In this document: one piece after another, positions 3,373-50,908 of the stretch
How the letters are laid out: every line of letters begins with the position of its first letter
Position numbering within the stretch: position 1 is the first letter of the stretch
Source of the DNA: Halorarum salinum
Lineage (GTDB): Archaea > Halobacteriota > Halobacteria > Halobacteriales > Haloferacaceae
Direction of reading: 5' to 3'
Length of the DNA stretch: 64,000 nt
Assembly: GCF_013402875.1 (NCBI RefSeq)
Contig: NZ_CP058579.1
Location: 1,798,001 to 1,862,000 of the forward strand
Translations under genes and position numbers: made by a program
The notes under the pieces: model-generated
Databases searched by the model: none
Seen by the model: the letters and a program-made list of their open reading frames with translations, nothing else
Told to the model about the DNA's origin: nothing

Positions 3373-4242
3373 ATGCGCTATTACGCCCTCGCGCGCCCCG
3401 AGCGGCGGGTTCTGGTCGCACGCGACGGTGACGATATCTTCGATCTGCCGAGCGCCAACCCCGACGTCGAGGGGTACTTCGACCTCGTCCGGGCCGCGAG
3501 GATAACGAATCAGTCCGTGGAGCGCGTCGCGCGCGGACTGCTCGACGAAGCGGAAGAAGTCGCACCCGAGGAACTGACGGGGCGACTCGGCCGGCCTGCG
3601 GTGCCCGAGGAGGTGTGGGCCGCCGGCGTAACCTACCGGATTAGCGAGAAAGCGAGGGAAGCCGAGAGCGGGATGCCCGACGTCTACGTCGACGTGTACG
3701 AGCGGGAGCGTCCCGAGTTGTTCTTCAAGGCCACCGGGAGCCGGACCGTCGGCCCAGGCGACGCCGTCGGCGTCCGCGAGGACTCCGCCTGGAACGTGCC
3801 CGAACCCGAACTCGGGATCGTCCTCCATCGGGGCGACATCGTCGGGTACACCATCGGGAACGACGTCAGCAGCCGCTCCATCGAAGGTACCAATCCCCTG
3901 TACCTCCCGCAGGCGAAGGTGTACGAGCGCTGTTGCTCCATCGGTCCCTGTATAACGCCTCCCGGCACCGTCGGCGATCCGCACGACCTCGGGATGGCGA
4001 TGACGATCGAACGCGACGGCGAGGTCGTGTACGACGAGGCCACGTCAACGTCCGAGATGGTCGTAACGTGCGAGGAACTCGTCTCGTACTACACGCGTCA
4101 CAACGTCGTCCCCGAAACGGCGGTTCTGCTGACCGGAACAGCCCTCGTTCCAGACGAGGATTTCACGCTTCGGAGGGGTGACGAGGTCCGCATCGAGATC
4201 GAGGGCATCGGCGTCCTGGAGAACTCTGTCACCGTCGTTTAG
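3373..4242 (+). CDS. Fumarylacetoacetate hydrolase-family protein, probable 2-keto-3-deoxy sugar-acid dehydratase
   Basis: This 289-residue protein belongs to the FAH family. Visible signatures are VWAAGVTYRISEKAREAE, PELFFKATGSRTVGPGDAV, the acidic metal-binding segment WNVPEPELGIVL, and GNDVSSRSIEGTNPLYLPQAK. The VWAxGVTY and PLYLPQAKVY segments resemble archaeal 2-keto-3-deoxy-arabinonate/xylonate dehydratases (KdaD/XacD type) more than true fumarylacetoacetases. The ATG at 3373 is preferred because a TATA-like box lies about 25 bases upstream. Divergence from an IclR regulator and proximity to an SDR and a DapA-family gene support a role in oxidative sugar-acid breakdown. The exact substrate is inferred. 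Confidence 0.85.
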   Translation: MRYYALARPERRVLVARDGDDIFDLPSANPDVEGYFDLVRAARITNQSVERVARGLLDEAEEVAPEELTGRLGRPAVPEEVWAAGVTYRISEKAREAESGMPDVYVDVYERERPELFFKATGSRTVGPGDAVGVREDSAWNVPEPELGIVLHRGDIVGYTIGNDVSSRSIEGTNPLYLPQAKVYERCCSIGPCITPPGTVGDPHDLGMAMTIERDGEVVYDEATSTSEMVVTCEELVSYYTRHNVVPETAVLLTGTALVPDEDFTLRRGDEVRIEIEGIGVLENSVTVV

Positions 4243-47289: not shown

Positions 47290-48099
47290 ATGGAACTCGA
47301 TAGCACTGGATCGCCCGTCGACGACATCGCGTACCTCACCCGGTCCGAACACCGAGTTCCCGCGCTCGTCGCCCTGACCGCCCGTCCGCGGAGTCGGTCC
47401 GAGCTCTGGGAGATGACCGGAGTCTCCTCGTCCACGATCAGGCGGACGATCAGGGAGTTCGAGGACCGGCACTGGATCCGCAGGAACGAGTACCGCTACG
47501 AGGCGACACAGCTGGGCGCGTACGTCGCGTCCGCGATGATGGACCTGCTCGAACGGTTCGAGACCGAGCGACAGCTCCGCGACGTCTGGCAGTGGCTGCC
47601 GAGCGAGGAGAACGGGTTCACGGTCGGGATGTGCGCCGACGCCGTCGTGACCGTCGCCGAGGCCGACGACCCGTACCGCCCCGTGAACCGGTTCGTCTCC
47701 CTCCTCAGGGAGACGGACCGGTTCCGGTTCGCCGGGTTCGACGTGGCCCTGCTCGAGCCGTGCAAGGACGAGCTCTGCCAGCGGATCGTCGAGGGGACGC
47801 GAACGGAGATCATCAGCCGGTCGAGGGTCGTCACGTACATCCGGTCGACGTCCCCGGAGCTGTTCTCGGAGGCGCTCGAGAGCGGAAACCTGACGGTCCG
47901 GGTCCACGACGACCTGCCGTCCTTCGGGGTCAGCATCTTCGACCGCCGGGTCGCGATCAGCGGTTACGACCCCGACAGCGTGATGGTCCGCGCGCTGGTC
48001 GACACCGACGCCCCGGAGGCGCGCGAGTGGGCGGAATCGATGTACGAGTCGTACCGGCGCGAGACGCCGACCATCCCCCTCGAGACGGCGGCGGAGTGA
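47290..48099 (+). CDS. Winged-helix regulator with FilR1 (DUF1724)-type sensor domain
   Basis: This is a 269-residue regulator. An N-terminal MarR/ArsR-like winged helix (about 12-75: SELWEMTGVSSSTIRRTIRE, DRHWIRRNEYRYEATQLG) is followed by a C-terminal domain (about 115-255: DAVVTVAEADDPYRPVNRFV, IISRSRVVTYIRSTSPELFS, VSIFDRRVAISGYDPDSVMV) of the FilR1 type found in many archaeal regulators. The ligand is unknown. It is the first gene of a same-strand run that continues into DUF1059 and OsmC genes, and it is the obvious candidate to bind their shared upstream element. That link is inferred from position only. Confidence 0.85.
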   Translation: MELDSTGSPVDDIAYLTRSEHRVPALVALTARPRSRSELWEMTGVSSSTIRRTIREFEDRHWIRRNEYRYEATQLGAYVASAMMDLLERFETERQLRDVWQWLPSEENGFTVGMCADAVVTVAEADDPYRPVNRFVSLLRETDRFRFAGFDVALLEPCKDELCQRIVEGTRTEIISRSRVVTYIRSTSPELFSEALESGNLTVRVHDDLPSFGVSIFDRRVAISGYDPDSVMVRALVDTDAPEAREWAESMYESYRRETPTIPLETAAE

Positions 48100-48262
48100 C
48101 GGGTCCAGCGGACGCGGGGACGGCCCCGGTCGTCCGACGTCGACGTCCCCGACGGGCCCGCGCAATCAGTTCCGTCCCTGTGCAGACGGCCGTTCCCACA
48201 GGACGGGAGGGGAGACGGATTTCCGCCGCGGGCGGGGTCCCGTTCCAGCGACTGACGGGCCG

Positions 48263-48326
48263 TCACCTGCTGCACGGCTGGCACCGACCGGGCGACCGTC
48301 ACCAGTTAGCTACCTAACACTCGCGC
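48263..48326 (+). promoter_or_regulatory. Shared upstream element, copy 1 (before the DUF1059 gene)
   Basis: This block matches 48924-48987 at all but about five positions over 64 bases and is collinear with it. It contains CACCTGCTGCACGG (48264-48277) and the exact 26-base core 48301-48326, which holds the palindrome GTTAG-CTAC-CTAAC (48305-48318). An SD-like GGGAGGTG follows about 15-20 bases before the ATG at 48360. The spacing suits a promoter with operator plus a short leader. Confidence 0.85.
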
Positions 48327-48359
48327 GCGTTCCCCCGTCGGGAGGTGAAAAACGAATCC

Positions 48360-48533
48360 ATGGCGAAAGCACACAAGCTCGACTGCGAGAACGCGGCGGC
48401 CGACTGCCGCTTCATCGTCCAGTCCGAGAACGAGGAGGAGGCGATCGAACTGGCCGGGAACCACATGCGGGACGTCCACGGTCAGGACTACTCCGACGAG
48501 GAACTCCGAACGGACCACCTGCAGGTCGTCTGA
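48360..48533 (+). CDS. DUF1059 small protein
   Basis: This 57-residue protein has the DUF1059 pattern: KLDCENAAADCRFIVQSENE, then EEEAIELAGNHMRDVHGQDY, with two Cys and a His. Members are small soluble proteins of unknown function, often next to redox or stress genes. A Shine-Dalgarno GGGAGGTG precedes the ATG, so the transcript has a leader. It carries its own copy of the shared element and is followed by about 390 bases without genes before the second copy. Confidence 0.88.
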   Translation: MAKAHKLDCENAAADCRFIVQSENEEEAIELAGNHMRDVHGQDYSDEELRTDHLQVV

Positions 48534-48923
48534 GGTCCTCGCGGAAGGCCCCCACTCGGTCCGTTCTCCCCTCGCCGCTCGATACTTCGTTCGACCCACT
48601 CGCCACGCCCGTTCGTTCCACGGACCGTCCGGGCGTCGCCCGCTCCGTTCCCCTCCCGTCCTCGCTTCGTCCGCTCTACACCCGCCAGTCCACACCCTCC
48701 GGCCCGTATCCTCCAGTCCACATCCCCGGTCCGGCTCCGGCGATCCCTGTTCCGTCGTCGTTCCGCCCCGCGTCGACGCGGCGGGCGCGGCGACCGTCGG
48801 ACCGCGGTCGGCGGCTCGACGCCCATCGAGTCGTTCGGCCGCCACGGCCACGACGGCGCCGAACGCGTCCGACGAACCGAATACGGGATCGGATCGACCG
48901 CGCGTGCAGTCGGTGACGCTCGT
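48534..48923. other. Spacer between the DUF1059 gene and the OsmC promoter
   Basis: Nothing coding was recognised. Around 48685-48735 there is a short CACA-TCC-rich imperfect repeat (CCAGTCCACA occurs twice, near 48686 and 48715), but no hairpin or T-tract stands out. The spacer ends at the second copy of the shared promoter element. Confidence 0.4.
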
Positions 48924-48987
48924 TCACCTGCTGCACGGGTGCCACCGACTGGCCGGCCGTCACCAGTTAGCTACCTAACACTCGCGC
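48924..48987 (+). promoter_or_regulatory. Shared upstream element, copy 2 (before the OsmC operon)
   Basis: This is the second copy, exactly 661 bases after the first. It repeats CACCTGCTGCACGG (48925-48938) and the 26-base core 48962-48987 with GTTAG-CTAC-CTAAC (48966-48979). The distance from palindrome to start codon is 54 bases here and 55 in copy 1. A GGGAGG Shine-Dalgarno again precedes the gene. Conservation stops at the coding start, pointing to regulatory selection or a recent promoter duplication. Confidence 0.85.
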
Positions 48988-49018
48988 CCCTCTGCTTTCC
49001 CGCCGGGAGGCAGAAGAC

Positions 49019-49624
49019 ATGACCAACGAACAGCGAATCACGCACGGCGTGGACGTCGACGAACTGGAGGCGTTCGCGGAGTACGCGAGCGACCGGCCCG
49101 ACGCGGTGCGGCTCGGGCTCGGGGCCCGCGCCACCTACGAGGGGACCTGCGCCCACAGCCTGGCGAAGATCGACTCGTACGGGCTCGGCGACGAGACGAT
49201 CGCCCGCGACACGCGCGAGTACACGATCCCGTACGGGGGATGGAAGGAGGTGCTGGACGCGGGGGGCTGGGTCGGCGCGACCGACCGGCTGGAGCCGATC
49301 GAGGCGGCCCTGTCCGCGCTCGCCTCGTGCATCAACGTCGGCATCACCGTCAACGCCGTCGCGAACGGCGTCGAGATCGAGTCCCTCAGGACCGACGTCC
49401 GGGTCGACTTCGATCCGGGCGTCCTCTTCAGCGTCAGGGACCTCGAGGAGGTCGACGGCGTCTTCGACAACCTGATCGCCGAGATCGAGATCGAGTGCGA
49501 GGACCTCGACGAGGACCAGGTCGACGAGTGGGCGCGGCGGGCCCCGGTGTACACGCTCGTCTCGGGCGCCCAGGACGTCAACCTGACCGTCAACACGCCG
49601 GCCGAGGTGTCGGCCGACGACTGA
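49019..49624 (+). CDS. OsmC-family protein
   Basis: This 201-residue OsmC/Ohr-fold protein has the family centre PIEAALSALASCINVGITVN, with the conserved Cys, and the long strand ESLRTDVRVDFDPGVLF. The N-terminal part contains YEGTCAHSLAKIDSYG. Classical OsmC/Ohr peroxidases use two cysteines; at the usual second position this protein reads RRAPVYTL, with Ala in place of Cys. The peroxidase mechanism may therefore be altered. It is the first gene of a tight operon with a methyltransferase 13 bases downstream and is controlled by copy 2 of the shared element. Confidence 0.88.
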   Translation: MTNEQRITHGVDVDELEAFAEYASDRPDAVRLGLGARATYEGTCAHSLAKIDSYGLGDETIARDTREYTIPYGGWKEVLDAGGWVGATDRLEPIEAALSALASCINVGITVNAVANGVEIESLRTDVRVDFDPGVLFSVRDLEEVDGVFDNLIAEIEIECEDLDEDQVDEWARRAPVYTLVSGAQDVNLTVNTPAEVSADD

Positions 49625-49637
49625 GGGGGTGACGGGG

Positions 49638-50405
49638 ATGCCGAACACACTCGACGTCGACAAACTGGAACGGGAGGTGAAGACGGTCTACCGGAACGTC
49701 GCGGAGGCGCCGGCGGGCGAGTACCACTTCGAGATGGGCCGCGGGCTGGCCGAACGGCTCGGCTACCCGGCGGCCGACCTCGACCGGATCCCCGCGGAGG
49801 CCCTGGAGTCCTTCGCGGGCGTGGGCTACCACTTCGACCTCGCCGACCTGCGGGAGGGCGACGACGTGCTCGACCTGGGTAGCGGCTCGGGGACGGACGC
49901 GTTCGTCGCTGCGCTGCAGGTCGGCGAGACGGGGAGCGTGACCGGGGTGGACATGACCCACGAACAGCTCGAGAAGGCCCGGGAGCTGCGGGACGAGGCG
50001 GGACTGGCGAACGTCTCGTTCGAACGGGGGTACGTCGAGGACCTGCCGTTCGAGGACGGCACGTTCGACGTCGTGGTCTCCAACGGCGTCATCAACCTCT
50101 CGCCGGACAAGACGCGGGTGTTCGAGGAGACGAACCGCGTCCTCGTCCCCGGCGGGCGACTCGCCGTCTCGGACATCATCAGCGAGCGGCGGATGCCCGG
50201 GAGCATCAAGACCGACGCGGACCTCTGGGCGGCCTGCATCGGCGGGGCCGAACAGGTCGACAGGTACAGGAGCGTCATCGAGGACGCCGGCTTCGAGGCG
50301 CTCGACCTCCGGGAGAACCCGCAGTACGAGTTCGTCTCGGAGCAGGCGGAGAACGCGTGTCAGAAGTACGGCGTCAAGAGCGTCTCGCTCGGCGCCCACA
50401 GGTGA
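49638..50405 (+). CDS. ArsM-like SAM-dependent methyltransferase
   Basis: This 255-residue protein has the layout of arsenite methyltransferases: VKTVYRNVAE at the N terminus, motif I DVLDLGSGSGTDAFVAALQV, VTGVDMTHEQLEKARELRDE, DLPFEDGTFDVVVSNGVINL and LWAACIGGAEQVDRY. The family's first metal-binding Cys (SAGCG) is replaced by FAGVG. The Cys in AACIGGA is kept and another lies in ENACQKYG. Arsenic methylation is therefore doubtful, and another soft nucleophile could be the substrate. A GTG at 49629 is an alternative start, but the ATG has better spacing from GGGGGTG. Confidence 0.8.
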   Translation: MPNTLDVDKLEREVKTVYRNVAEAPAGEYHFEMGRGLAERLGYPAADLDRIPAEALESFAGVGYHFDLADLREGDDVLDLGSGSGTDAFVAALQVGETGSVTGVDMTHEQLEKARELRDEAGLANVSFERGYVEDLPFEDGTFDVVVSNGVINLSPDKTRVFEETNRVLVPGGRLAVSDIISERRMPGSIKTDADLWAACIGGAEQVDRYRSVIEDAGFEALDLRENPQYEFVSEQAENACQKYGVKSVSLGAHR

Positions 50406-50410
50406 TCACG

Positions 50411-50908
50411 ATGGCAACGGAACAACCAGTAGCGGGCGAACGGGAAGAACAGGTCGAGCTCGGCTCGAAACTACGGAACGGCTCCCTGCTGATGGCCTTG
50501 GCGGGCGTGGGGTTCATCGGGTACGGGATCGTGTTTCTGGTGATGAACTTCGTCGGGAGCGGGTTCGAGATCGGGGTGAGCACTCTTGGCGGGATGACGA
50601 GCGCGGAGTTGGACCCGACGGTGGCGTACTACATCAGCCACCTGCACGTGGCGACCGCGGCGTTCATCATCTCGACGGGGATCGCGGTGACGGCGCTCTC
50701 GTGGTACGGGGTGCGCCAGCGGCTCACCTGGGCGTGGGCGACCGCGATCGTCGCCGCGGTCGTGGGCCTGGCGCTCGCGCTCCCGATGCACTACACCGCG
50801 GACGCGTTCGCCCACGACTGGGTGACCCACCTCGGCCCCATCTACCTCGCGACCATCGTGTTCGTGGTGGGTGTGGTTCTGTCGTACCAGGGCATGCGAG
50901 CGTCGTAG
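50411..50908 (+). CDS. Four-helix membrane protein of unknown function
   Basis: This 165-residue protein has about four membrane helices: SLLMALAGVGFIGYGIVFLV, an amphipathic stretch ending in VATAAFIISTGIAVTALSWY, TWAWATAIVAAVVGLALALP and LGPIYLATIVFVVGVVLSYQ. Histidines lie near membrane edges (SHLHVATAAF, PMHYTADAFAHDW) and could bind metal or haem, but no known motif is present. It starts five bases after the methyltransferase stop, so it belongs to the same operon and may be a transporter or redox partner. Confidence 0.75.
   Translation: MATEQPVAGEREEQVELGSKLRNGSLLMALAGVGFIGYGIVFLVMNFVGSGFEIGVSTLGGMTSAELDPTVAYYISHLHVATAAFIISTGIAVTALSWYGVRQRLTWAWATAIVAAVVGLALALPMHYTADAFAHDWVTHLGPIYLATIVFVVGVVLSYQGMRAS

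Follow-up and report, generated by a model that had tools for sequence, protein, structure and literature searches.

A conserved array of 18-bp dyads upstream of haloarchaeal DUF1059 and OsmC promoters, a predicted target of the neighbouring FilR1-type regulator

TrmBL1 of the Thermococcales recognizes the TGM dyad (TATCAC-N5-GTGATA), activating from sites upstream of the BRE and repressing from sites downstream of it (PMC4706686). At the gas-vesicle promoters of haloarchaea, GvpE, an endogenous regulator that resembles a leucine-zipper protein and is encoded in the same cluster, activates from a UAS adjoining the BRE, a single 20-nt element (8+4+8) whose short distance to the BRE matters (PMC4390858). 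A further group, DUF1724 (PF08350), comprises FilR1 of Methanosaeta and the Msr regulators of Methanosarcina, which combine an HTH with a FilR1_middle domain (PMC5847659, PMC11784639, PMC11218639). FilR1 of Methanosaeta also has a C-terminal REC domain, while Msr regulators lie near their own targets and some have been shown to activate (PMC11784639, PMC11218639); MsrA and MsrB are reported activators (PMC11218639), and MsrC and MsrX carry DUF1724 (PMC11784639). No operator sequence for Methanosaeta FilR1 or the Msr regulators was found in the open PMC literature, and the locus described here predicts the DNA target of this wHTH family, which has many haloarchaeal paralogs.

The locus lies in a window of 64,000 nucleotides from the genome of Halorarum salinum, where a FilR1/HVO_A0261-type gene is followed by two promoters, each preceded by a tandem array of 18-bp dyads. 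As in TrmBL1, the regulator combines a wHTH with a PLD-like fold and its candidate sites lie upstream of the putative BRE, from which activation would follow by analogy. The TCAC/GTGA halves of the TGM dyad find their closest counterpart in the TTTCAC-N3-GTGAAA sites of FilR1 paralogs. Unlike the N5 of TGM, the spacer is N3 both in the window units (CAS-N3-STG) and in the paralog sites (TTKCAS-N3-STGMAA), and the sites form a tandem 18-bp array in contrast to single TGM sites. The regulator matches FilR1_middle and HVO_A0261_N in place of the TrmB Pfam models, and its candidate targets are not a sugar regulon. The arrangement at GvpE-dependent promoters is similar in that a putative haloarchaeal activator site adjoins the BRE at a short distance and the regulator is encoded in the same cluster, but the regulator here is a wHTH protein and the site a phased array. 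Relative to FilR1 of Methanosaeta, the protein shares the HTH and FilR1_middle domains and is without REC.

These comparisons and the data presented below have led us to propose, with a probability of roughly 0.7, that the neighbouring FilR1 binds the 18-bp arrays upstream of BRE/TATA and probably activates DUF1059, the OsmC unit and genes in trans. The protein would bind CAS-N3-STG dyads side by side, on three tandem units that lead into a CACNAR-N-TAGCTAC core, most likely a BRE and TATA box, and from this position would probably recruit TFB/TBP. It would thereby co-control DUF1059 and the unit of OsmC, methyltransferase and membrane protein, together with at least two genes elsewhere in the genome, one for a FAD/BBE oxidase and one for a Tat-type secreted cupin, probably in response to oxidative or thiol/electrophile stress. 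The targets (OsmC, oxidase, methyltransferase) hint at a thiol or electrophile signal, as does Cys158 of the regulator, which is present in 19/19 regulators of the two nearer groups and replaced by Asn in 3/3 of the far group. FilR1, array and DUF1059/OsmC/methyltransferase genes would form a self-contained regulator-operator-target cassette with a small trans regulon, and would provide naturally occurring regulator and site variants with which to study specificity and activation distance in archaea.

The regulator gene (47290..48099, 269 aa, on the + strand like the features below) had been named as the neighbouring candidate in a preliminary description of this DNA, and the linkage described here makes it a strong one. 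Its product matches PF25213 (HVO_A0261_N wHTH) at 94.2 bits against a cut-off of 35, forming the N-terminal winged HTH, and PF08350 (FilR1_middle) at 109.1 bits against a cut-off of 27, a C-terminal PLD-like domain ending at residue 257. Pfam gave no REC match in the 269 residues, and TrmB models were not among the matches at E up to 0.001. The AlphaFold2 model (pLDDT 89) likewise has a wHTH followed by a PLD-like domain, and its best fold matches are TrmBL2 (Z 14.1-14.8, rmsd 15-19, with a different domain orientation) and TrmB, whose sugar-binding domain aligns with Z 13.2 and rmsd 2.7 over 131 residues; a sequence search of solved structures returned just weak HTH matches. Among the named loci, all 42 whose contig reaches far enough have a FilR1 ortholog upstream in the same orientation; these include L211, where the gene is just 42% identical and about 1.9 kb off, and a few others with 1-1.6 kb between. 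The same holds for each of the family's OsmC element loci that were inspected, with the gene aligning partly in one genome (G011). Among the 148 genomes of the family, 19/23 with a FilR1 relative above 240 bits and 0/125 without have an element at E<1e-5 (Fisher 2e-20), a co-occurrence that is partly expected because element and FilR1 are linked; strong trans sites, too, are found only in such genomes. Two Halegenticoccus genomes (L121, L122) have two or three FilR1 paralogs in tandem ahead of the array. Elsewhere (L164, G000:C1:3411565), a FilR1 N-terminus 66% identical to that of the window ends after about 95 codons, fused to the C-terminal portion of a gene for an arsenite-methyltransferase-like protein, which looks like a scar left when a second copy of the cluster was deleted.

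The two promoters had been noticed as paired blocks, and sequence comparison confirms that 48263-48326 and 48924-48987 are alike at 59/64 bases and offset by exactly 661. They share an identical core, which on counting by eye extends over 31 bases (CCGTCACCAGTTAGCTACCTAACACTCGCGC) and not the 26 originally given. The palindrome within them starts 55 and 53 bases 5' of the two ATGs. A GGGAGG Shine-Dalgarno precedes both genes, and the genes are indeed unrelated, Pfam assigning DUF1059 to one and OsmC to the other. The 64-base extent proved too short: the repeat array begins at 48246 and 48907, and its first unit, which differs between the two copies, falls outside these bases. Before DUF1059, three units (CAGCGACTGACGGGCCGT, CACCTGCTGCACGGCTGG and CACCGACCGGGCGACCGT; 48246..48299, starting at 48246, 48264 and 48282) score 6, 6 and 5 of 6 at the 18/36/54 positions where relatives peak. 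They lead into the core CACCAGTTAGCTAC (48300..48313), in which the last half-unit runs into a BRE/TATA-like TAGCTAC, and are followed by the Shine-Dalgarno (48340..48345) and the 57-aa gene (48360..48533, PF06348). The OsmC promoter repeats this arrangement, with units CAGTCGGTGACGCTCGTT, CACCTGCTGCACGGGTGC and CACCGACTGGCCGGCCGT (48907..48960, starting at 48907, 48925 and 48943; array model R1 E 8.5e-16), a core CACCAGTTAGCTAC at 48961..48974 that is conserved in relatives, a Shine-Dalgarno at 49005..49010 and the 201-aa OsmC-like gene (49019..49624, PF02566). Downstream in the OsmC unit, in a conserved gene order, is an arsenite-methyltransferase-like SAM methyltransferase (49641..50405, PF13847; PRK11873 at 233 bits, under the cut-off of 263). 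It is followed by a small membrane-type protein (50411..50908) without a Pfam match, a homolog of which has the array before it alone in another genome.

Upstream of the core, the array consists of direct repeats at 18-bp pitch, the unit being an imperfect dyad CAS-N3-STG, often GCAGNNNCTGC; each window promoter comprises three units and the core. This array, which the preliminary description had not seen, is conserved across haloarchaea as 18-bp phased sites before an unusual promoter. In 27 promoters, dyad scores at 18, 36 and 54 bp 5' of the core were 5.04, 5.00 and 4.56 of 6, against a maximum of 3.07 at any offset in 500 shuffles. In 43 named loci they were 4.86, 3.91 and 3.67 against a background of 2.12 (sd 0.38); the two sets share some members and related genomes are not independent of each other, neither of which affects the comparison between offsets. 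The named OsmC loci come from Halegenticoccus, Halomarina, Haladaptatus, Haloarcula, Halorussus, Halorubrum, Natrialba, Natronolimnohabitans, Halobacterium bonnevillei, Haloferax profundi and others. They were reached by a scan with the OsmC alignment, since the FilR1 alignment was too diverse for this use; DNA similarity search reached just two close relatives reliably. An anchor-free count in these loci gave 88 dyad pairs at 18 bp; shuffles gave 3.0 (maximum 9), and windows drawn at random from these loci gave 3.7 (maximum 13). No such spacing is seen in the DNA preceding the FilR1 genes. The last unit is in most cases placed 18 bp 5' of the core's CAC. Enrichment is likewise seen at spacings of 27 and 45 bp in the 43 loci, indicating that some arrays shift by half a pitch and that the register is not absolute. 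At 18 bp, about 1.7 turns, adjacent dimers would not lie on one DNA face.

The core CACNARNTAGCTAC was found in 43/43 named OsmC or DUF1059-OsmC promoters; in nine of these it deviates once or twice from the search pattern and was placed by eye. Among DUF1059/OsmC homologs of the same family it usually starts 56-65 nt 5' of the start codon and in some cases up to 110 nt. It is composed of a BRE-like CRAR followed by TAGCTAC, of which TA..TA is near invariant in 63 distinct promoters. Compared with the published haloarchaeal BRE consensus CGAAA (PMC4983044), the core probably represents a BRE and TATA box; TAGCTAC fits the haloarchaeal TATA motif TTWT poorly, however, and its near invariance could mean that the sequence is read by a regulator. 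A conserved TCGTA about 20 nt 3' of the core, followed by the Shine-Dalgarno, would fit a short leadered transcript. A short-pattern scan with CANNANNTAGCTAC matched only the two window sites in the genome itself; in 148 genomes it gave many chance-like matches outside these loci, and a backwards control matched more often.

Sites in trans were sought with an array model built from the sequence of 39 promoters. In the genome itself, one site (2559695, E 2.2e-11) lies 52 nt before the gene for a FAD_binding_4/BBE oxidase (Pfam) and another (274489, E 9.4e-8) lies 68 nt before a gene for a Tat-type secreted cupin, whose Cupin_2 match is slightly under the Pfam cut-off. The targets in relatives, which were recognized by sequence (the oxidase of the genome itself being the only one scanned with Pfam), include FAD/BBE oxidases in four genomes, a distant DUF1059, the membrane protein alone and methyltransferases; the model also matches sites in other families of the order. 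At one locus (L129, about 3400-3470, G079) the array is kept, but about 16 codons are left of the DUF1059 frame that lies between it and the methyltransferase. Another (L277, 2807-3034, G015) has a weak match to the array ahead of a 76-aa peptide; this peptide ends in a Cys-rich tail, GNYCVVSGCYVVCNSCEKK, and resembles a RiPP precursor. DUF1059 paralogs of three genera (L073, L076, L080) have in common another promoter element, TTATAGAA...CCTATAGAA-TGTTGTTCTAATTATA; they lack the array, and no FilR1 gene was seen in their vicinity.

Related dyads are found beside more distant FilR1 paralogs (35-46% identity), where TTKCAS-N3-STGMAA occurs 13 times in 18 kb of flank compared to 3 times in 126 kb elsewhere, a 30-fold enrichment whose p of 7e-10 is optimistic, as the pattern was chosen after several of these loci had been seen. 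Several of these sites have a CAC 17-18 bp downstream and then a core of CTACA/TTTACAT type, and in the genome itself a TTTCACGCGGTGAAACGTTTCACCAGACATCTACA promoter precedes a methyltransferase. The recognition helices of the groups (STIRRTL, STIGRTL and PTVGRIL), compared by eye, vary in step with the site variants. It is possible, if rather less than probable, that haloarchaeal FilR1/HVO_A0261 regulators share one operator code, in which TTKCAS-N3-STGMAA stands 17-18 bp ahead of a CAC-BRE/TATA core and the recognition helix (STIRRT, STIGRT or PTVGRI-type) sets the half-site and core variant. The OsmC/DUF1059 clade would then be distinguished by arrays of 3-5 units, an oligomer at 18-bp pitch, a regulon-specific TATA and thiol stress sensed via Cys158. 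An exact TTTCAC-N3-GTGAAA at 967801, before what by eye looks like an IclR-type regulator, is probably unrelated; another such site, the third, is at 3318680. At L163 (G000:C1:2296206-2297163), a FilR1 paralog with a disrupted C-terminus lies by an intact TTTCACGCGGTGAAA-type promoter before a methyltransferase.

The preliminary description had placed the control site in the GTTAG-CTAC-CTAAC palindrome (GTTAGCTACCTAAC, 48305..48318 at DUF1059). This 14-mer occurs at only two places in the 4.26-Mb genome, the dyad GTTAGN4CTAAC being expected 0.27 times by chance in the window at up to one mismatch, and a genome-wide search for near-matches (up to two mismatches) gave nothing useful for further sites, while the array model did find them. 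Perfect in both window copies, the 5-4-5 dyad is perfect in just 10/63 distinct promoters; its arms vary nearly independently (2.41 of 5 pairs agree against 2.08 expected when dealt at random) and it overlaps the TATA-like core. Alignment of upstream regions of DUF1059/OsmC homologs retains core and array while the palindrome arms vary. On conservation the palindrome is thus rejected as the operator, with a very small residual probability, and is incidental to core and array. The claim of a control element common to both units is nonetheless borne out by conservation in relatives. Lack of the palindrome at orthologous loci had been named as a sign that the intergenic segment was a recent neutral duplication; the palindrome is not conserved there and the element is. 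The 59/64 identity of the window pair exceeds that of within-genome pairs in three relatives (47 and 49 for DUF1059/OsmC, 40 of 64 for DUF1059/DUF1059), so that recent copying or conversion is likely and the near identity probably reflects local homogenization of an older, conserved element. As the sole explanation, neutral duplication is ruled out by the same conservation, the architecture being kept with divergent spacers in 43/43 named loci and in trans; it is the least probable reading and is retained only as the reason for the 59/64.

The same operator and regulator could also serve repression, with FilR1 occupying the DNA to the BRE edge and blocking TFB/TBP until an inducer releases it. 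This would suit the CAC of the last unit, which abuts or overlaps the BRE-like CRAR, and has a precedent in TrmB, which represses by overlapping BRE/TATA (PMC4706686). All full dyads, however, lie directly upstream of the putative BRE/TATA, as do archaeal upstream activator sites, including those from which TrmBL1 and GvpE activate; the TATA-like box is weak, as would be expected of an activator-dependent promoter, and the Msr group includes the activators MsrA and MsrB. Given FilR1 as the binder, the position of the full units leads us to prefer activation, with repression keeping appreciable weight; as a reading of the whole locus, repression is the most serious competitor and still rather unlikely. 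That another protein binds the array, the FilR1 gene being linked for some other reason, is improbable. In its favour, haloarchaeal genomes encode many wHTH proteins (25 HVO_A0261_N matches at E up to 1e-5 in this one, 13 over cut-off), and FilR1 itself is a predicted binder. Many genomes have several FilR1 paralogs, so that a different paralog could be the binder. Against a different protein are the linkage of FilR1 in all testable loci, the restriction of strong trans elements to genomes with a strong FilR1 relative and the related dyads adjoining other FilR1 paralogs. Only a slim chance is given to an array that nucleates a chromatin-like silencing filament in the style of TrmBL2; the best fold match is this archaeal chromatin protein and the units are several and tandem, but they are sequence-specific, fixed in phase to the promoter and present at few promoters.

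A leader-RNA explanation was also considered and rejected, as a small hairpin over the Shine-Dalgarno can form in several leaders but not consistently. The OsmC leaders in which it can fold are those of the window (48985-49018; TCTGCTTTCC-CGCC-GGGAGGCAGA) and of L083, L084, L087, L088 and L090 (TGCC-GNAA-GGCA), where it suggests possible translational control.
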